Assembly (NCBI GenBank): GCA_900551945.1
Contig: URYE01000033.1
Coordinates: 1-24,778, forward strand
Length of the DNA stretch: 24,778 nt
Reading direction: 5' to 3'
Origin: an uncultured Eubacterium sp.
GTDB taxonomy: Bacteria > Bacillota > Clostridia > Lachnospirales > Lachnospiraceae
The notes below the pieces were generated by a model. The model saw nothing but the letters and a program-made list of their open reading frames with translations. It had not been told where the DNA came from and made no database searches. Made by a program: the position numbers and the translations under genes. This document shows, piece by piece, positions 4,770 through 18,627 of this stretch (position 1 is its first letter; every line of letters starts with the position of its first letter).

Positions 4770-6488
4770 ATGATAAGAGGAATTGGTACATCTAAAGGTA
4801 TTGGCATGGGAAATGCCGTTTTAGTAGATATTAAGGATACAGAGTTTGAAGTTATAAATATAGAAGATGTCAATGCAGAAAAGGTGCGTTTTAAAGAAGC
4901 TGTTGAAGAATTTATAAAAACAACACAAACAGTTATTGAGCAGTTAAGTAGTAAGCTTAAAGATAACAATAATACTGCACTTGTAATGCAAAATCAAATA
5001 TACATTATAAAAGACCCTGAAATGACACAAGGGGTCAATGATATTATTGAAAGTGAAAAAATATGTGCAGAAGCAGCATTTGACGCAATTTGCAATAAAT
5101 TTATAAAAATATTTCAAGCTATGGATAATGAAGCCATGAACCAAAGAGTTGCTGATATTGAAGACTTGAGAAACCACGTTATTGATATTCTTATGGGAGT
5201 AAAGAGAGTAGATTTGACAAGTCTTAAACCACAAACGATTATTGTAGCAAAAGAGCTTCGTCCATCAATTACGGCTTCTATGGATATTGATAATGTAGTT
5301 GGTATTATTGCAGAAAATGGCGGTGAAACTTCACATGCAGCTATTCTTGCTAGAGCTCTTGAGATACCAGCAGTTCTTAATGTTAAAAATGCTTGCAAAC
5401 TTATTAAAAATGAAGATTATGTAATTGTAGATGGTGAATATGGAGAAATATTTGTCAATCCAATAGAACGAACTGTAAGAATTTATGAAAAAAAGAGAAG
5501 ACGTTTTCTTGAAGTGCAAGAAGAATTAAAGCAATATGTGAATAAAGAAACTTGTACGGCTGATAATATAAAAGTATGCCTTGCGGCAAATATTGGAAAT
5601 GCTGATGATGCTACAAAGGCTATGACAGCAGGAGCAGAAGGTGTTGGACTTTTTAGAACTGAATTTTTATTTATGAATGGTGTTAAAATGCCAACAGAAG
5701 AAGAACAATTTGAAGCATATAAAAAAGCAGTAATTCTTTGCAAAGATAAGTTTTTAACAATTAGGACACTTGATATAGGTGGCGATAAAGATATTCCCTA
5801 TATGGGGCTTGCAAAGGAAAATAATCCATTTTTAGGTTACAGAGCTATAAGGTTTTGTCTTGACAGAGTTGATGTATTTACGGTACAGTTAAGGGCAATA
5901 TTAAGAGCAAGTGCATTTGGGCGAATAAGAATAATGCTTCCAATGATTACAAGTGTTAATGAAGTTAGACAAGTTAAAAATATTATTGGTAAGCTTATGA
6001 ATAATCTTGAAAAGGATAATATAGAGTTTGATAAAAATATTCAAATTGGTGTTATGATAGAAACGCCAGCGGCGGCAATGATGGCTGATGTGCTTGCAAA
6101 GGAAACTGACTTTTTCTCAATAGGAACTAATGACCTTACGCAATATGTAATGGCAGTAGACAGAGGGAATGAAAATGTTGCATATCTTTATTCTGTCTTT
6201 AATCCTGCGGTGCTTAGATTTATAAAGAGAATTATTAAGGCGGGGAAAGAAGAAGGAATTGAAGTTGGTATGTGTGGTGAGGCAGCAGGCAACCCAGCTA
6301 TGATACCACTTTTACTTGCTTATGGGCTTGACGAGTTTAGTGTGACACCATCTAAGGTGCTTGAAACTAGGAAAAATATCGCTTCTTGGACTATGAAAGA
6401 GGCTTGTGAGTTGGAGAGTAAGGTGGCGAATATGGTTACTGAAAAAGAAGTTGCGATGTATCTTAATGATTATATTGCTAATAAATAA
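4770..6488 (+). CDS. ptsI: Phosphoenolpyruvate-protein phosphotransferase (PTS Enzyme I)
   Basis: First enzyme of the sugar phosphotransferase system: takes phosphate from PEP onto a histidine and passes it to HPr in the cytoplasm. At 572 residues it is the normal family length, and key residues fall where they do in the E. coli enzyme: phosphorylated H189 in GGETSHAAI, R296 in GLFRTEF, GTNDLTQY, and C502 in MCGEAAGN. It starts at ATG 4770 behind GAGAAAGG, 47 nt after the GDPD gene and possibly co-transcribed with it. No ptsH (HPr) or sugar-specific component is in the window, so this is a general rather than sugar-linked locus. The 3' end runs directly into the hairpin/tandem-repeat region; its stop codon is 14 nt from the hairpin. 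Confidence 0.96.
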   Translation: MIRGIGTSKGIGMGNAVLVDIKDTEFEVINIEDVNAEKVRFKEAVEEFIKTTQTVIEQLSSKLKDNNNTALVMQNQIYIIKDPEMTQGVNDIIESEKICAEAAFDAICNKFIKIFQAMDNEAMNQRVADIEDLRNHVIDILMGVKRVDLTSLKPQTIIVAKELRPSITASMDIDNVVGIIAENGGETSHAAILARALEIPAVLNVKNACKLIKNEDYVIVDGEYGEIFVNPIERTVRIYEKKRRRFLEVQEELKQYVNKETCTADNIKVCLAANIGNADDATKAMTAGAEGVGLFRTEFLFMNGVKMPTEEEQFEAYKKAVILCKDKFLTIRTLDIGGDKDIPYMGLAKENNPFLGYRAIRFCLDRVDVFTVQLRAILRASAFGRIRIMLPMITSVNEVRQVKNIIGKLMNNLEKDNIEFDKNIQIGVMIETPAAAMMADVLAKETDFFSIGTNDLTQYVMAVDRGNENVAYLYSVFNPAVLRFIKRIIKAGKEEGIEVGMCGEAAGNPAMIPLLLAYGLDEFSVTPSKVLETRKNIASWTMKEACELESKVANMVTEKEVAMYLNDYIANK

Positions 6489-6502: not shown

Positions 6503-6657
6503 GGATATAGGACTTATATAAATAAACACACACCAGTGAAAGTACAATTATCTATATATGTATGCCCTCGTCAAACAAGGGTGTTTGCCGCTGTCATACA
6601 TATATAGATAATTGTTCTTTAAATGGTGCATTTATTATTTATATAAGTCCTATATCC
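6503..6657. repeat. Long covarying hairpin element, copy 1
   Basis: A 155-nt fold-back. Outer arms 6503-6525 and 6635-6657 are a perfect 23-bp stem; CACCA 6531-6535 pairs with TGGTG 6624-6628; inner arms 6544-6564 and 6595-6615 are a perfect 21-bp stem; the apex CAAACA-AGGG-TGTTTG (6572-6587) is a further hairpin. Fixed motifs shared with the copies at 10195 and 18471 are CACACACCAG, TATGCC, GTGTT, TTGTTCTTT and AATGGTG. It sits 14 nt past the ptsI stop. TGTGAAG flanks it on the left and TGACGGAAGG on the right; similar flanks recur in the tandem repeat that follows. Confidence 0.92.
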
Positions 6658-6900
6658 TGACGGAAGGTTTTCTTTATTCTATTTATTAGCAAAATATGGG
6701 TGGAGTGGTTGGCGATAGTTAATGTGTGAAGTACTATAGTCTGACGGGAAGTTGGCTGGCTTTTTCCGCAAAATATTAAAGGGTGTAGTGGTTGGAGATA
6801 TTTAATGTGTGAAGTATTATAGATTGATGAAAGAGTGGTTGGCTTTATTAGCAAAATATTAAAGGGTGTGGTGGTTGGTGATGGTTAATAAATGTAAGAT
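6658..6900 (+). repeat. Three imperfect tandem units of about 83 bp
   Basis: Units 6658-6741, 6742-6824 and 6825 to about 6900 each run TGACGG(A/G)A..., a T-rich part, GCAAAATAT, a G-rich part ending GTGGTTGG, then (T)TTAATGTGTGAAG and a short ATAG-containing joint; the third unit is the most degenerate. The joints between units resemble the hairpin flanks with the hairpin missing. The G-rich parts (such as GGGTGTGGTGGTTGG in unit 3) contain four GG runs. No convincing coding frame is present. The remaining bases to hflX (6901-6966) hold a TATAAT at 6905-6910 without a good -35 and the hflX ribosome binding site. Confidence 0.8.
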
Positions 6901-8869: not shown

Positions 8870-10186
8870 TTGGATAATACATATAAACCTACTAAAAATA
8901 AAAAGACACCGTTGATTATTGGAATTATTGTCGCTGTTATTGCAGTTGTGGGCTTGGGAATATATTTTGCATATCCTATGCTTAAAAGAAGTGCTGTGCC
9001 AGTAGAAAGTGCAGGAGATATTTTAAAGGCAGAAACAGATAGGTTAAAACAAAGTGTAGAATACAATCTTTCAGAGCTTGAAAACAATGGAAGTATAAAG
9101 ACAGTTAAGTATTCAGGAACTATTTCGTTAAAGGGACTTAATATAGAGGGAACAGACTATTTTGATTATTTAAAAGCTGATGAATTACAGTATGATATAT
9201 ATTCTGAGATGGCTACATCAACTATGAGTGGAATTATCGGAATAGCACAACAAGGTAATTCAATTTTAGAGCTTAATTTTTATAAGGATACACAAAATAT
9301 ATACTTTAGTGTACCTAAACTTATAACACAGACTTTTAAGATATCCATAGAAGATGTTATAAAAGAAATGGTTGCACAAAATGCAGAGTATATGCGTATA
9401 GGTGATGGTACATTAGATGAGTATTCACAGTTGATTGATAAGGATACCTATGAGAAAGTATTAAGAGCATTATTATTAGGAACAGGAAAAGAAAAGTTAA
9501 AAGGATATGCTTCTGATGTTAAAGCATTTACTCCTTATATATTCAGTTCAATTAATACTTTATGGGATAATGCAGAATATGAAAAGGGCGAGAATGTTAC
9601 TATTTCAACGAATAGAGGAGCTAATAAGCAAGACGCAAGAACTTATACAGTTACAATATTTAATAATGCGTTAAATAAAATGCTTGAAAATGCTATTAAC
9701 TCAATATATAGTGACTCAAAGCTTACAGCTTATACGTCGCTTATTACATCAGTAACTAAAGTATCAAAGAATACACTTATTATAGGCTTAGAAAATGAGT
9801 TTAAAAATGTTGACAATATAAAGTTTAATATTACAGTTGATGATAATGATAGAATTGTTGGACTGTGGTTTGATTTAAGTAGTTTGACTGGAAATGCAAC
9901 GGATTGTATTAATATTTCTATGGCAGGAAATAGTAGTCCATCAAGTTATATTACAAGTTCGATTAGTCTAACTGATAATTCATCATCAATTGATTTTAAT
10001 GTTGTATGTGATACAGAGTCAGAAAGTAAGGCAGAAAAGCTTTCAGTAAATGATTTTGTTAATCCTGTGGATGTTCTTAGTTTGACTAATAGTCAAATGG
10101 TGCAGATTTCAAGAGATTTAATTCTTAATATGAATGTATTAAATCAGATATTCTCTGAAAAGGCACTGTCGGAAATTATGGATTAA
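8870..10186 (+). CDS. Single-pass membrane protein of unknown function
   Basis: I do not recognise this 438-residue protein. It starts at TTG 8870 behind AAAGGAG. Residues 1-12 are Lys-rich and cytoplasmic-looking, residues ~14-34 form one transmembrane segment (IIGIIVAVIAVVGLGIYFAY), and the remaining ~400 residues would lie outside. The outer part is Ser/Thr/Asn-rich and soluble-looking, with alternating polar/hydrophobic stretches that suggest a mostly beta-strand fold (for example VKYSGTISLKGLNIEG and LELNFYKDTQNIYFSVP); no Cys lipobox or catalytic motif is visible. The layout resembles clostridial proteins annotated as hypothetical with repeated extracytoplasmic lipoprotein-like domains. 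It lies after folA on the same strand, and its stop codon is nine nt from the second hairpin element. Confidence 0.8.
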   Translation: MDNTYKPTKNKKTPLIIGIIVAVIAVVGLGIYFAYPMLKRSAVPVESAGDILKAETDRLKQSVEYNLSELENNGSIKTVKYSGTISLKGLNIEGTDYFDYLKADELQYDIYSEMATSTMSGIIGIAQQGNSILELNFYKDTQNIYFSVPKLITQTFKISIEDVIKEMVAQNAEYMRIGDGTLDEYSQLIDKDTYEKVLRALLLGTGKEKLKGYASDVKAFTPYIFSSINTLWDNAEYEKGENVTISTNRGANKQDARTYTVTIFNNALNKMLENAINSIYSDSKLTAYTSLITSVTKVSKNTLIIGLENEFKNVDNIKFNITVDDNDRIVGLWFDLSSLTGNATDCINISMAGNSSPSSYITSSISLTDNSSSIDFNVVCDTESESKAEKLSVNDFVNPVDVLSLTNSQMVQISRDLILNMNVLNQIFSEKALSEIMD

Positions 10187-10194
10187 GGTTGGTG

Positions 10195-10348
10195 AAAATA
10201 GCAGTAGTATATAAATACACACACCAGAAAAAGAACAATAGACTATATTTGTATGCCATCATCGAACAAGTGTGTTCGCTGTTGTCATACAAATATAGTC
10301 TATTGTTCTTTTTAATGGTGCATTTAATTTATATACTACTGCTATTTT
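10195..10348. repeat. Long covarying hairpin element, copy 2
   Basis: A 154-nt fold-back and the most perfect copy. Outer arms 10195-10216 and 10327-10348 pair over 22 bp; CACCA 10222-10226 pairs with TGGTG 10316-10320; inner arms 10228-10255 and 10286-10313 pair perfectly over 28 bp; the apex is CGAACA-AGTG-TGTTCG (10263-10278). The apical A-T pair of the other copies is G-C here, a compensatory change. GGTTGGTGA just before and TTTACGGAAGGTTGTGG just after match pieces of the tandem unit at 6658-6900. Confidence 0.92.
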
Positions 10349-10428: not shown

Positions 10429-10475
10429 AAAATGACTATCGTAATAAATAAGAGTTGCGATAGTCATTTTTATTT
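10429..10475. terminator. Bidirectional terminator between converging genes
   Basis: Arms 10429-10441 (AAAATGACTATCG) and 10458-10470 (CGATAGTCATTTT) form a perfect 13-bp stem with T-runs on both strands. It lies between the plus-strand membrane-protein gene and the minus-strand amidase gene and can serve both. Bases 10349-10428 show only a remnant resembling the tandem unit. Confidence 0.8.
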
Positions 10476-10496
10476 ATACAAATAGCAAGCCAAAAT
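10473..10496. repeat. Post-terminator repeat, half copy D
   Basis: TTTATACAAATAGCAAGCC followed by AAAAT aligns without gaps over 24 nt to the beginning of copies at 1524, 14873 and 17768. The second, pairing half is missing, since the amidase stop codon (10496-10498, complement) begins here. Confidence 0.5.
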
Positions 10497-11779
10497 TAAT
10501 CATAGGATATATATGTGTTGTATCTAAAACGTCTAAGGCGTTGTTCCATTTTTATAGCATTGAATAAATTTCTAAATGCGCCGACTTGGACTTTGTATAT
10601 TCCGTTGTCGTACACTATGAATGCAGGGAAGCCTTCGATTAGGAGTGAATTGAGCATACGGTCGGCGTTGTCTTTGCTTCTAAAAGCTCCTGTTTGAACA
10701 CGATATAACTTTTCTGGTGGTTCGTTATAAGTGTTGTCATCGTATATATCAGGTGTGTTATAATTAGGATAATTCATGTTGTAAGAATTGTCCTGCATAG
10801 GTGAATTATAATTGTTGTCAGAAGTGTTATTGTAGTCAGTATTATATCTGTTATTATAGTCATTAGGATATTCGTTGTTATAGTTTGAATTATAATCATT
10901 ATTATAGTTAGGGTTATAATTTCTATCATAATTGTTGTCATAATTTGTATTATAGTTTCTATCGTAATTCCTATCATAATTTGCGTTATAATTCCTATTA
11001 TAATAGCCATCAGGATTATCCATATTTTCTTTAGGTTCTATGTTATCCATGTTATTATTATTCATACTATCAGTATTAGCTATTTCACTGTCGTTATCTA
11101 TATCGTTAATATTATTCATAGTGTCTATGCTATCTACATTATTTTGATTGTTAATATTTTCAAAGTTATTAGTATTATTTATATTAGGAGTATCATAAGT
11201 TGGGGATATATTATCTACAAATGTAGAAGAAGTAGCAACACTTCTTGATGGTAAGCTTTTTAGTATTCCGTCAGCGATTGCTTGAGCTATGTGTTGAAAA
11301 TGAGTGTCAAACAGTTCATTGTCTTTGTCGTTGTTAATAAATCCAACTTCAACAAGAACTGCAGGCATTTTTGTCCTTTTTAGAACCACAAGGTTCGGGC
11401 GTTCATCAACTCCTAAGTTTTTAAATCCAACTTTTTCAAGTTCTGTATTGATGTTTCTTGCCATTACAGCTTTAATTCCATCGTCATTATATACAAGAGT
11501 TTCGACACCTTCATATTGGTTATCTCGCTCTGAAGAGTTTCTATGAATAGATACAAAAAAGTCAGCATTCGCGTTATTAGCTTTAGTAGCTTTTTGAAAT
11601 GGTGTTTCATATATATCACTTGAACGTGTATATATTACATTAATTCCATTGTCCTGTAAAATTCTTCCAACAGCTTTAGTAAGGCGTAGGGCATCGTCTT
11701 TTTCTTGTCTGCCCTTATAAGTAGCACCTGGGTCAGTGCCTCCATGTCCCGCATCTAATACAACAGTAGTTTCTGGCAT
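10496..11779 (-). CDS. N-acetylmuramoyl-L-alanine amidase with Tyr/Asn repeat linker and SPOR domain
   Basis: Zinc amidase (Amidase_3 type) that should cut the bond between muramic acid and the stem peptide of peptidoglycan. Of 427 residues, 1-178 are the catalytic domain: zinc ligands H12 (DAGHGG), E26 and H79 (SIHRNSS), and catalytic E144 (VEVGF). Residues ~190-355 are a low-complexity linker: first Asn/Asp/Ile-rich, then Tyr at every fourth residue from Y260 to Y316. Residues ~356-427 are a SPOR domain of two related halves (YRVQTGAF..., YKVQVGAF...), which binds denuded glycan. The protein begins directly with the catalytic domain: no signal peptide or membrane segment is visible, odd for a wall enzyme. 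GGAG precedes the ATG. It is divergent from the peptidoglycan-binding protein at 12079. Confidence 0.93.
   Translation of the reverse strand: MPETTVVLDAGHGGTDPGATYKGRQEKDDALRLTKAVGRILQDNGINVIYTRSSDIYETPFQKATKANNANADFFVSIHRNSSERDNQYEGVETLVYNDDGIKAVMARNINTELEKVGFKNLGVDERPNLVVLKRTKMPAVLVEVGFINNDKDNELFDTHFQHIAQAIADGILKSLPSRSVATSSTFVDNISPTYDTPNINNTNNFENINNQNNVDSIDTMNNINDIDNDSEIANTDSMNNNNMDNIEPKENMDNPDGYYNRNYNANYDRNYDRNYNTNYDNNYDRNYNPNYNNDYNSNYNNEYPNDYNNRYNTDYNNTSDNNYNSPMQDNSYNMNYPNYNTPDIYDDNTYNEPPEKLYRVQTGAFRSKDNADRMLNSLLIEGFPAFIVYDNGIYKVQVGAFRNLFNAIKMEQRLRRFRYNTYISYD
10822..11002 (-). repeat. 12-bp-period tandem repeat encoding the Tyr-Asn linker
   Basis: Inside the amidase gene, codons for residues 260-319 repeat with a 12-nt period (Tyr-(Asn/Asp)-x-(Asn/Asp)), giving 15 tyrosines spaced exactly four residues apart (260 to 316). 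The plus strand reads as recurring TTATAATT/TATCATAATT-like blocks. Such arrays can gain or lose units by slippage. Confidence 0.85.
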
Positions 11780-12078: not shown

Positions 12079-13350
12079 ATGAGCTTTGGATATGTGCATA
12101 CGTTTGAAACTCCACCCGAAATGTTAGATGAAGGTAGTCTTAAGATAAATGTTACTGATAGGTTGACAGGAAGACCAATAGATAATGCAAGGGTTGACAT
12201 TTCCTACACAGCAGACCCATCTTCAACAATAGAGGAGCTTGTGACGGACAGTGATGGTCAGACAGAAGCTATAATGCTTCCTACTCCGCCTTTAGAATAC
12301 AGCATGGAACCTAGTATTAATCAACCTTATGCCGAATATACTGTGACAGTAAATGTAAATGGCTTTGAACCATTTAGTGTATCTGGGGTAAATGTAATGT
12401 CAGGGGAAGTTAGTATTCAAGACGCACAAATTGTTGGAAGTACTGTAAGTGAAGCACCTGACAATATAGTAATTTTCCCACATACACTTTTTGCTGAATA
12501 TCCGCCAAAGATTGCCGAAAGTGAGATAAAGCAAGTAAACAGACCCGGAGAAATTGTACTGAGTCGAGTGGTAGTGCCAGAAACTATAGTTGTACATGAT
12601 GGTGTTCCAACAGACAGTTCAGCAACTAATTATTATGTAAGATATTCTGATTACATAAAAAATGTTGCTTGTAGTGAAATATATTCTACATGGCCGACGG
12701 AAACGATAGAAGCAAATGTACTTGCAATAATGTCCTTTACGTTAAATAGAGTGTATACGGAGTGGTATAGAAATCAAGGATATGATTTTACAATAACTTC
12801 TTCAACGGCTTATGACCATAAGTGGATGAACGGAAGGAATATTTTTAAGAGTATTTCTGATGTAGTAGATGATATTTTTAATAATTATTTGTCAAGACCA
12901 AATGTAAAACAGCCTATTCTAACTCAGTATTGTGATGGTAAGAGAGTGAGTTGCCCTAACTGGATGAGTCAGTGGGGAAGTAAATATTTGGGTGACCAAA
13001 GTTATAATTCTATAGAGATTTTAAGGTATTATTATGGTGATGATATGTATATTAACAGTGCCGAGCAAATAAGTGGAATACCATCATCATGGCCGGGAGC
13101 TAATCTTGACATAGGTTCTTCGGGTCAAAAGGTTAGGCAGCTTCAAGAGCAACTTAATCTTATTGGTGAATATTATAATCGAATACCAGTTCTTGTTCCT
13201 GATGGAGTGTATGGGGAAAGAACAGCAGAAGCGGTAAGAGAATTTCAAAGGATATTTGATATGCCACAGACAGGAGTGGTGGACTTTGCAACTTGGTATA
13301 AAATATCAGATAAATATGTAAGGCTTTCGGAGATTGCGGAATTAGTTTAG
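12079..13350 (+). CDS. SpoIID-like peptidoglycan-binding protein
   Basis: Likely binds and perhaps acts on peptidoglycan. The 423-residue protein appears to have three parts: residues ~16-110 a beta-sandwich resembling carboxypeptidase-regulatory or Ig-like folds (SLKINVTDRLTGRPIDNARV); residues ~185-330 a segment like the SpoIID/LytB family (VACSEIYSTWPTETIEANVLA, ILTQYCDG, MSQWGSKYLG, SIEILRYYYGDD); and residues ~345-415 a PG_binding_1 domain (GSSGQKVRQLQEQL, DGVYGERTAEAVREFQ). There is no signal peptide or membrane segment. AAAGGAT precedes ATG 12079. It is divergent from the SPOR-domain amidase, and both lack export signals, which fits a role inside the mother cell during sporulation or release on lysis; this is inference. 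Lytic activity is not established by visible residues. Confidence 0.82.
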   Translation: MSFGYVHTFETPPEMLDEGSLKINVTDRLTGRPIDNARVDISYTADPSSTIEELVTDSDGQTEAIMLPTPPLEYSMEPSINQPYAEYTVTVNVNGFEPFSVSGVNVMSGEVSIQDAQIVGSTVSEAPDNIVIFPHTLFAEYPPKIAESEIKQVNRPGEIVLSRVVVPETIVVHDGVPTDSSATNYYVRYSDYIKNVACSEIYSTWPTETIEANVLAIMSFTLNRVYTEWYRNQGYDFTITSSTAYDHKWMNGRNIFKSISDVVDDIFNNYLSRPNVKQPILTQYCDGKRVSCPNWMSQWGSKYLGDQSYNSIEILRYYYGDDMYINSAEQISGIPSSWPGANLDIGSSGQKVRQLQEQLNLIGEYYNRIPVLVPDGVYGERTAEAVREFQRIFDMPQTGVVDFATWYKISDKYVRLSEIAELV

Positions 13351-14832: not shown

Positions 14833-14870
14833 AAGTGGATAGCTTTTGTTATCCACTTTTTTATATTTTT
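14833..14870 (+). terminator. Attenuator terminator in the infC leader
   Basis: Perfect 9-bp stem, 14833-14841 (AAGTGGATA) with 14850-14858 (TATCCACTT), an 8-nt loop, and a long T-rich tail. There is no gene immediately upstream on this strand, so it acts as a leader attenuator. Confidence 0.82.
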
Positions 14871-14872
14871 AA

Positions 14873-14918
14873 TTTACGCAAACAGCGAGCCAAAGTTTGT
14901 GCTTGCACTAGACTTGGC
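14873..14918. repeat. Post-terminator structured repeat, copy B
   Basis: TTTACGCAAACAGCGAGCC then CAAAGT, GTGCTTGCAC hairpin (14899-14908); GCCAA 14889-14893 pairs with TTGGC 14914-14918, where copy A has GTCAA/TTGAC. It begins inside or just after the T-tail of the infC attenuator, so it would be part of the read-through leader RNA. Confidence 0.7.
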
Positions 14919-15207
14919 AACTTATGGCTAAGACCACGAAAACCAAGTGGCAATAATTAAAATCTAGGAAAGGAAAAGCTATTTAGATGAGCCTATATTT
15001 AATCAATTAAGATAAACTTATAGGTATGTACCGATGGCTAAGTCGGGAATTTATGACTGTGGAGTGTATAAAAATTGTTAGTAGTATCTGGCTTTATTCA
15101 GTACAAACGCATACACAATGAAGCAGTAACTACAAATCGTGAGATTGTAGCAAATCATCTAGCATATACACATATTGGTATATGTTTTTAGTAGCAGGTA
15201 CACTACA
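14919..15207 (+). promoter_or_regulatory. Second half of infC leader, with possible 7-codon frame
   Basis: Non-coding apart from a possible minimal frame ATG 14987 to TAA 15010 (MSLYLIN) behind AGGAAAGGA at 14966-14974, 12 nt away, which is long spacing. Short stems are visible: CCTATA 14992-14997 with TATAGG 15019-15024, CCGA 15031-15034 with TCGG 15043-15046, and CATATAC with GTATATG (about 15163-15184) followed by TTTTT, a weak second terminator-like hairpin just before infC. These may form part of the leader control or the translational control of infC. Confidence 0.4.
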
Positions 15208-15714
15208 ATTAGTGAATTAATGATTAACGAACGAATACGAGATAAAGAAATTCGTGTTATTGGTGAAGAAGGACAGCAGCTTGGAGTTATGTCTCCAAAA
15301 GAAGCAATGAAATTAGCAAAGGAAGCCAATGTAGACCTTGTAAAGGTTGCTCCATCAGCAGTTCCACCTGTATGTAAGCTTATTGATTATGGTAAGTACA
15401 GATATGAACTTGCAAGAAAAGAAAAAGAAGCTAAGAAAAAGCAAAAGACTATAGAGGTTAAGGAAGTAAGACTTTCACCTAACATAGATGTTAATGACCT
15501 TAATACAAAGTGTAATTCAGCAAGAAAGTTTCTTGAAAAAGGTAACAAAGTAAAGGTTACATTAAGATTTAGAGGCCGTGAAATGGCTCATATTGAAGCA
15601 AGTAAGCATATTCTTACAGATTTTGCTGAAAAGCTTTCAGATATAGCCGTAGTAGACAAAGCTCCAAAGCTTGAAGGCAGGAGTATGACAATGTTTTTAA
15701 CTGAAAAACGTTAA
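15208..15714 (+). CDS. infC: Translation initiation factor IF-3, probable ATT start
   Basis: Binds the 30S subunit, discriminates against wrong start codons and keeps subunits apart. The frame is open from a TTG at 15175, but family N-termini align from ISELMINERIRDKEIRVIG, which begins with ATT at 15208; AGCAGGT at 15193-15199 supplies a ribosome binding site about nine nt upstream. From there the protein has 168 residues, the usual size, with the IF3-N domain (to ~75), a Lys-rich linker helix (ARKEKEAKKKQKTIEVKEV) and IF3-C. A non-standard ATT start is typical of infC and lets IF-3 limit its own synthesis. ATG 15220 is a less likely alternative with no ribosome binding site. Heads the infC-rpmI-rplT operon behind an attenuated leader. 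Confidence 0.93.
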   Translation: MSELMINERIRDKEIRVIGEEGQQLGVMSPKEAMKLAKEANVDLVKVAPSAVPPVCKLIDYGKYRYELARKEKEAKKKQKTIEVKEVRLSPNIDVNDLNTKCNSARKFLEKGNKVKVTLRFRGREMAHIEASKHILTDFAEKLSDIAVVDKAPKLEGRSMTMFLTEKR

Positions 15715-17716: not shown

Positions 17717-17767
17717 AGAGTGGTAATTATATTAATGAATTTAATAATATAATTATCACTCTTTTTA
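17717..17767. terminator. Bidirectional terminator between lipoprotein gene and dut
   Basis: Arms 17717-17734 and 17745-17762 pair over 18 bp with a single G-T wobble; T-runs flank it on both strands. It serves the converging genes at 16568-17614 and 17877-18320. Confidence 0.85.
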
Positions 17768-17821
17768 TTTATGCTAATAATGAACCAAAGTTTGTAATTG
17801 CATAAGACATTGGGAATTATT
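17768..17821. repeat. Post-terminator structured repeat, copy C
   Basis: TTTATGCTAATAATGAACC then AAAGT aligns over 24 nt to copies A, B and D. AATAAT 17776-17781 pairs with ATTATT 17816-17821 and CCAA 17785-17788 with TTGG 17810-17813. Copy A has AACAAC/GTTGTT and GTCAA/TTGAC at the same places, so the pairs have changed together. The central hairpin is degraded here. Confidence 0.65.
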
Positions 17822-18470: not shown

Positions 18471-18627
18471 AGATATCATTATTATATAAAACATTCACAC
18501 ACCAGTAAAAGTACAATTGCCTATATTTGTATGCCATTATCAAACAAGAGTGTTTGCTACTGTCACACAAATATAGGCAATTGTTCTTTAAATGGTGTAT
18601 TTATTGTTTTATATAATTCTGATATCT
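18471..18627. repeat. Long covarying hairpin element, copy 3
   Basis: A 157-nt fold-back. Outer arms 18471-18493 and 18605-18627 pair with two mismatches; CACCA 18500-18504 pairs with TGGTG 18593-18597; inner arms 18513-18533 and 18564-18584 pair over 21 positions with one A-C mismatch; the apex is CAAACA-AGAG-TGTTTG (18541-18556). Right flank TTACGGGAATTTATTGG and later CAAAATT...TTAAAGGTGT match the tandem unit at 6658-6900. Same orientation as the other two copies. It separates dut from argF. Confidence 0.9.

Follow-up and report, generated by a model that had tools for sequence, protein, structure and literature searches.

Dispersed one-strand hairpins in Lachnospiraceae-like genomes, a candidate non-autonomous mobile element whose fold is kept between diverged copies

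The window, by which we mean the whole stretch of 24,778 nt analysed here, contains three hairpins of 154-157 nt, which lie at the places given by a preliminary description of this DNA, in one orientation and between ORFs. Copy 1 is located between co-directional ORFs, copy 2 between convergent ORFs and copy 3 between divergent ORFs. The proteins encoded in the window are Lachnospiraceae-like; relatives listed for the amidase include Eubacteriales, Lachnospira pectinoschiza and [Lactobacillus] rogosae, and the protein of 8870-10186 had 7 relatives. The features of the hairpins are given below, with the minus strand taken as the folded one. Bit scores are from covariance model R3, which was built on the minus strand and whose training set includes all three copies.

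6503-6657, minus (taken as the folded strand): copy 1, full hairpin from outer 23-bp stem to outer stem; R3 148.6 bits on the minus strand, 103.8 on the plus strand
10195-10348, minus: copy 2, full hairpin; R3 141.2 bits minus, 98.9 plus
18471-18627, minus: copy 3, full hairpin; R3 145.9 bits minus, 97.3 plus
6559-6600, minus: apical motif TGTNYG-N7-CRNACA-N4-TGTNYG-N7-CRNACA of copy 1; 0 occurrences in 100 shuffles
10250-10291, minus: apical motif of copy 2; pattern match
18528-18569, minus: apical motif of copy 3; pattern match
6544-6615, minus: inner domain of copy 1, a 4-nt loop flanked by two arms of 34 nt; each of its 27 pairs is Watson-Crick; coordinates derived from the apical motif
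6528-6534, minus: GGUGUGU arm of the conserved U.G-containing helix, copy 1
6625-6631, minus: AUGCACC arm of the same helix, copy 1
6475-6487, plus: outermost arm of copy 1 (TTGCTAATAAATA), in the end of coding sequence 4770-6488, part of the stop codon included
6680-6692, plus: partner of that outermost arm (TATTTATTAGCAA)
6698-6863, no strand assigned: two tandem 83-nt units adjoining copy 1, which repeat its flanks (GTGTGAAG..TGACGG) and have only a short stub where the hairpin would be

The apical motif pattern is its own reverse complement. The tandem 83-nt units may be deletion derivatives. They resemble base stubs that lack most of the interior in other genomes (L283, L313 and L342). 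Elsewhere in the window lie a TwoAYGGAY RNA (RF01731, 13392-13553, minus strand, 93.9 bits) in the gap after ORF 12079-13350, and a RAGATH-18 RNA (RF03064, 15056-15129, plus strand, 64.9 bits) just upstream of ORF 15175-15714. A second short repeat of 43-59 nt, with copies 67-73% alike, occurs at 1518-1576, 10467-10509, 14867-14925 and 17762-17820, and the amidase (10496-11779, minus strand) has an Asn/Tyr-rich linker, whose coding DNA is a degenerate repeat spaced at 12 and 24 nt.

The plus-strand folds had z = -13.7, -18.4 and -11.8 for copies 1, 2 and 3, with 0 of 200 shuffles as stable in each case, and a strict pattern of the element occurred three times in the window and never in 100 shuffles. 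The outer 23-bp stem of copy 1 is perfect, and the outer stem of copy 3 has two mismatched places, in line with the preliminary description. Compensated arm changes were seen as well, since 17 of the 64 predicted pairs in the three-copy alignment had both sides altered with pairing kept in at least one copy. On the minus strand, CACACACC and the GCAT beside AATGGTG are themselves part of a helix, AUGCACC/GGUGUGU, that includes wobble pairs. Outside the hairpin, copy 1 has an additional 13-bp stem, with the 3' end of the coding sequence upstream serving as one of its arms; this outermost stem scored 30.5, and the highest score among 100 shuffles was 23.0.

Read along the minus strand, the outer stem is followed by a short loop and the helix AUGCACC(G)/(C)GGUGUGU; next come an asymmetric loop, a first arm of 34 nt, a loop of 4-5 nt and the mirror-image arm. 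The core follows a fixed ruler, in which the 34-nt arm ACA-N12-TGTNYG-N7-CRNACA is followed by the loop and then by its mirror image; the 5' arm is 34 nt long in 10 of 11 copies and 35 nt in L136, and L138 and L139 deviate from the TGT of the motif. In alignment A3, which leaves out L133, the doubtful copies, and L140 and L142 with their other layout, one pair of the AUGCACC helix is invariably U.G (in all 9 rows that have letters there), and the adjacent pair is G.U in 7 of 9 rows and A-U in 2. L140 and L142, both in G331, share the loop motif (TGTACG-ATGAAAG-CGAACA) in a different layout and possibly represent a sister family (G and L numbers are our labels for genomes and loci). A third, copy-specific outer stem is present in all five copies of G358 and G362, and in each case no more than 1 of 100 shuffles equalled it; in the window it is found in copy 1 (0 of 100 shuffles) and is unclear in copies 2 and 3 (8 and 22 of 100).

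The core measures about 155 nt, and in the best-preserved genome, G589, the whole element including its base stem spans 204-210 nt between GGCTGTTGCA and TGCAACAGCC (10 copies measured). These terminal inverted repeats, or ends like them, were recognised in 14 of 48 copies of G589, G590 and G592. The window copies have inverted outer arms, and the base stem GGCTGTTGCA..TGCAACAGCC was not seen in them. In one candidate origin of the base stem, older terminators with stem CTGTTGCA would have received the element in their loop. This was rejected: a finder of perfect stems of 7-14 bp located 83 terminators in the G592 tiles and 52 in the G589 tiles, and CTGTT stood in the 5' arm of 0 and 1 of them, respectively. 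Since CTGTT is nearly absent from the 5' arms of ordinary terminators, the base stem seems to be part of the element.

Covariance-model searches, as proposed in the preliminary description, found relatives with compensatory arm changes. R1, a model of the three window copies, had no match in 101 genomes of the phylum to which an unrelated starting genome belongs. In a set of 40 genomes related to G157, it recovered full copies in G358 (three) and G362 (two) and an incomplete copy in G372, and a second, overlapping set of 40 genomes gave two weak matches, one of them again in G372. R2, an eight-copy model, matched at least 4 of 397 family genomes when the best 7 candidates per genome were scored; within 22 genomes of one genus, only G358 and G362 had matches. 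R3, a ten-copy model, matched 7 of the 40 genomes related to G528 and 3 of the 40 related to G248, with G372 and G374 common to both lists. At E<=0.001, scoring the best 75 of up to several thousand candidates per genome, the distinct places numbered at least 25 in G589, 28 in G590, 12 in G592, 5 in G528, 5 in G372, 4 in G248, 1 in G581 and 1 (weak) in G374, all of these counts being lower bounds. Loci were retrieved for 20 of 25 places in G589, 20 of 28 in G590, 12 of 12 in G592, 5 of 5 in G528 and 3 of 4 in G248. Judged by protein similarity, the host genomes are probably Lachnospiraceae.

No Rfam 15 family reached its gathering score on the hairpins when the whole window was searched, and at the E-value level copies 1 and 2 and ten loci gave only sub-threshold matches, mainly to microRNA precursors. 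blastn of copy 1 and L196 against phages and plasmids returned no match, and the exact element patterns were absent from viral contigs. Several candidates were rejected: three pattern matches in genome contigs, whose folds are unlike the element; L137, which is a plain hairpin; at least 120 stretches of viral contigs matching a loose pattern, taken as chance for a pattern of 16 bases; and 10 viral contigs matching the apical pattern, which hold other repeats or folds. Allowing one mismatch, the apical pattern occurred in 5 of the 397 family genomes, four of them with different folds and the fifth, G248, at the known L143 place (G248:C10), which R3 matched again as one of the 4 places of that genome. 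In some viral contigs (L174, L175, L178-L183), short palindromes such as GGACA-TTTTT-TGTCC stand in tandem or in clusters, with a fold that differs from that of the hairpins. The three window hairpins belong to a family of short non-coding repeats without an Rfam entry, in Lachnospiraceae-like hosts.

The fold was strongly supported by covariation in ten copies. Of 508 cells, 90.2% were paired, compared to 74.3% in shuffled alignments; 28 pairs showed double changes (17.0 shuffled), in 76 cells (23.9 shuffled), and the covariation score was 0.408 (0.140 shuffled); none of these values was reached in 500 shuffles. Both sides were altered in 14 of the 21 pairs of the inner helix. When the partner was slid by 1-3 columns, at most 51.9% of cells were paired, a comparison biased in favour of the structure because it was derived from the aligned sequences themselves. 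The earlier view that the fold is constrained was borne out.

The meaningful strand is the minus strand. Without flanks, folding energies on the minus and plus strands were -79.7 and -74.8 for copy 1, -84.8 and -81.5 for copy 2, and -73.4 and -65.5 for copy 3; once 45 nt were added at either end, the minus strand was lower only for copy 1 among these three. Over 15 core copies, four of which (L140-L143) are divergent or doubtful, L141 and L143 being retained as doubtful, the minus strand was lower in 14 without flanks, though orientation had been set by plus-strand models, and in 11 with 45-nt flanks. On the minus strand 59 of 877 pairs were G.U, as against 13 of 814 for the plus strand. When 11 copies were read in one fixed register of the inner helix, their 297 pairs comprised 268 Watson-Crick, 17 G.U, 2 A.C and 10 other pairs (G.U versus A.C, p = 0.0007). 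In a larger set, with counts resting on a model-fitted alignment, the modelled minus strand was lower in 64 of 74 copies; we give more weight to the 15-copy and fixed-register results, because the orientation of the 74 copies came from a model that contains base pairs.

We next consider where the copies lie. Neighbours were counted outside the window with mechanical ORF calls of 90 aa or more, and 63 of 65 copies had both neighbours. At least one gene 3' end adjoined 61 of the 63; between co-directional genes 22 copies were sense and 23 antisense, 16 lay between convergent genes and 2 between divergent genes. Where both ends were recognised (14 of 48 copies), the left flank was A-rich (58%) and the right flank T-rich (54% over the first 8 nt). 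Such positions recall a structured RNA working where it sits, as a 3'-UTR structure or an unusual terminator, and multiplied by duplication. This explanation is in line with all five copies of G358 and G362, which are located 44-65 nt past a stop codon in sense orientation, and with the T-rich DNA that follows the base stem in the 14 copies. The even orientation to co-directional neighbours speaks against it, as do the patchy occurrence, in 2 of 22 genomes of one genus, and the position of window copy 3 between divergent ORFs.

Ten similar copies of G589 differ from their nearest neighbours by 2-17%, and similarity of their flanks is absent over 1.3 kb on either side. Because similar copies have unrelated flanks, the element must have been amplified within genomes. 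Presence also differs between the sister species G590 and G592, whose flanks are colinear. Of seven G590 places with both flanks in the G592 tiles, the element is present in G592 at L202, decayed at L245 and L250, reduced to a base stub at L197 and unrecognised at L191, L207 and L239. At L207 and L239, by reading, the sister has an unrelated terminator-like hairpin instead, which would suit a structure with a local role. The sister comparison suggested at the outset thus gave differences in presence and absence, but the flanks do not rejoin cleanly and no exact empty site was among these places. In one genus, where empty sites were sought upstream of a fumarase gene, most proteins were 81-86% identical, and the species were judged too distant for the comparison.

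The short, non-coding, intergenic and numerous copies with inverted repeats are also what an ordinary transposase-borne MITE would leave, with the long arms as terminal inverted repeats and the fold incidental. Known bacterial MITEs likewise give long stem-loops; QMITE2 is found mainly in 3' untranslated regions, while SPRITE resembles a terminator (PMC10969869 and PMC2229807). No target duplication was detected, however: the mean score was 0.71 for true flanks and 0.71 for mismatched flanks, with 149 of 300 permutations as high, in a test of 14 of 48 copies with both ends, two of which share one site, and old duplications may have decayed. The end sequence GGxxCTGTTGCAAA of the G589 elements presumably resembles IS6-family ends, and no 8-bp duplication was seen at the ends of G589 elements. 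Beyond the ends, the 14 copies had no copy-specific complementarity. With end models built on G589, neither a mobilising gene nor a longer element with both ends in order was found in 1.98 Mb of G589 and G592 tiles. In addition, the inner helices covary, and their non-Watson-Crick pairs favour G.U on one strand. We regard an ordinary transposase-borne MITE with an incidental fold as improbable.

Copies at shared sites were also compared with diverged copies within genomes. Six sites shared by G590 and G592, 76-90% identical, were aligned directly in pairs (L243/L208 with one flank aligned only). Pairs were unchanged in 313 cases and changed in 95, of which 7 were double Watson-Crick changes, 25 G.U, 27 A.C, 28 other and 8 Watson-Crick in neither; in a separate tally, 7 were kept by double change, 25 were kept as G.U and 63 were broken. 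Run through the same script, the three window copies had 49 changed pairs (26 double, 5 G.U, 2 A.C, 16 other, 0 in neither) and three G358 copies had 62 (20 double, 17 G.U, 2 A.C, 19 other, 4 in neither). Within-genome comparisons being non-independent, the share of double changes exceeded that at shared sites with Fisher p = 2e-9 for the window and 8e-5 for G358, and the share of kept pairs with p = 0.0008 and 0.002. The excess of double changes was weak or absent elsewhere: six G589 copies, in 15 non-independent comparisons, were nearer neutral (213 changed: 21 double, 76 G.U, 51 A.C, 49 other, 16 in neither), and one pair from G362 (16 changed: 3 double, 6 G.U, 1 A.C, 5 other, 1 in neither) and one from G372 (5 changed: 1 double, 1 G.U, 0 A.C, 3 other) are too few to judge, while the window itself supplies three copies only. 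In the model-fitted alignment A5, the shared sites showed 26 double changes and a G.U:A.C ratio of 26:16, an excess that we attribute to shifted rows.

Changes at shared sites look neutral, with no preference for G.U over A.C. The ratio of 25:27 also led us to reject mutational strand bias as the source of the G.U excess. Since double changes are common among window and G358 copies and rare at shared sites, the fold looks to be kept between element lineages and not at each site. Conservation of structure at orthologous sites, as expected of RNA that works locally, was absent from the six sites, where pairs were lost uncompensated, although A5 is less clear in this respect; taken with the orientation and patchiness of the copies, this makes a role in place unlikely.

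The window copies, mutually diverged yet nearly perfect, do not discriminate by themselves, as selection in place or correction of one arm by the other would give the same picture. The latter was offered in the preliminary description as fold-back copying. As a rival explanation, slippage of replication at the hairpin would template one arm on the other, with no function involved. Perfect or nearly perfect arms in diverged copies would follow from it, and the outermost arm of copy 1, an inverted match to the 3' end of the adjacent coding sequence, is one hint in its favour. Such copying should be symmetric between strands and should repair copies in place, and neither was seen, so it is not supported as the main cause. 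It would erase both kinds of mismatch, yet G.U outnumbers A.C by 17:2 on one strand; internal loops and the U.G wobble are conserved uncorrected, and one-sided changes persist in the copies at shared sites. We consider a purely corrective origin very improbable.

The reading that we prefer, at a probability of about 0.55, is that the hairpins are a non-autonomous, non-coding mobile element whose spread requires one strand to be folded, as RNA or as single-stranded DNA. The element is dispersed, amplified within genomes, patchy between species and mostly found beside gene 3' ends; its one-strand fold is kept with compensation between diverged copies and decays uncompensated at sites shared by sister species. 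Neutral-looking shared sites and mostly fold-keeping diverged copies together separate selection for spread from selection in place. Counting against this reading are the lack of a mobilising gene in the 1.98 Mb of tiles, the flanks that fail to rejoin cleanly in G592, the weak or absent excess of double changes outside the window and G358, the folds with 45-nt flanks and the base stem not seen in the window copies. The element would spread in trans, through a machine that recognises the folded single strand, RNA or single-stranded DNA, corresponding to the minus strand of the window. Copies with a broken fold would stop spreading, and copies would decay after landing. The host may tolerate insertions because they fall beside terminators, or because the GC-rich base stem is followed by T-rich DNA. 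The preliminary description had named a structured RNA or a single-strand DNA substrate; a single-strand fold is indeed favoured, but on the other strand, and it would matter during spread and not at each site.

RNA would accommodate G.U pairs and the invariant U.G more naturally than DNA would, though single-stranded DNA stays a candidate too. In SINE-like retroelements, a structured RNA is amplified in trans and its structure is selected only in the source copies. A bacterial counterpart, in which a structured non-coding RNA is copied back into the chromosome in trans and only the spreading copies are selected for their RNA fold, would fit the invariant U.G and the one-strand G.U excess, and also the lack of target duplication and the apparently neutral decay of copies at shared sites. 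We know of no bacterial precedent, and put this version forward tentatively, as possible rather than probable.

Bacteria commonly have small palindromic repeats, but it is rarely testable whether their fold serves in place or only for spread; here both can be compared in one family. Strong covariation alone is thus no proof of a locally working RNA, and the mode of spread, as RNA or single-stranded DNA, becomes an experimental question. It is also of note that Rfam lacks a family that reaches 25 or more copies in some genomes. Within the terms searched, no published description of this repeat was found in open PMC texts.

ERIC, Correia/NEMIS, CIR, RPE and BOX/RUP/SPRITE, as described in PMC10969869 and PMC2229807, are like the present family in being short, non-coding, dispersed and intergenic, with long stem-loops and no transposase of their own. 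Going by those descriptions, the present family is set apart from bacterial MITEs and palindromic repeats by its host group, the 34-nt ruler, the invariant U.G, strand-specific compensation between lineages, decay at shared sites and the lack of an observed target duplication. Integron attC sites, too, are hairpins of variable sequence and conserved structure that are used as one strand; they stand in cassette arrays, unlike the single dispersed copies beside gene ends seen here. On our reading, IS200/IS605 elements and REP/RAYT systems would share with the present family a mismatched hairpin as single-strand substrate, strand specificity and the absence of target duplication. The present hairpin is much longer than theirs, REP units being 20-40 bp (PMC3733652).
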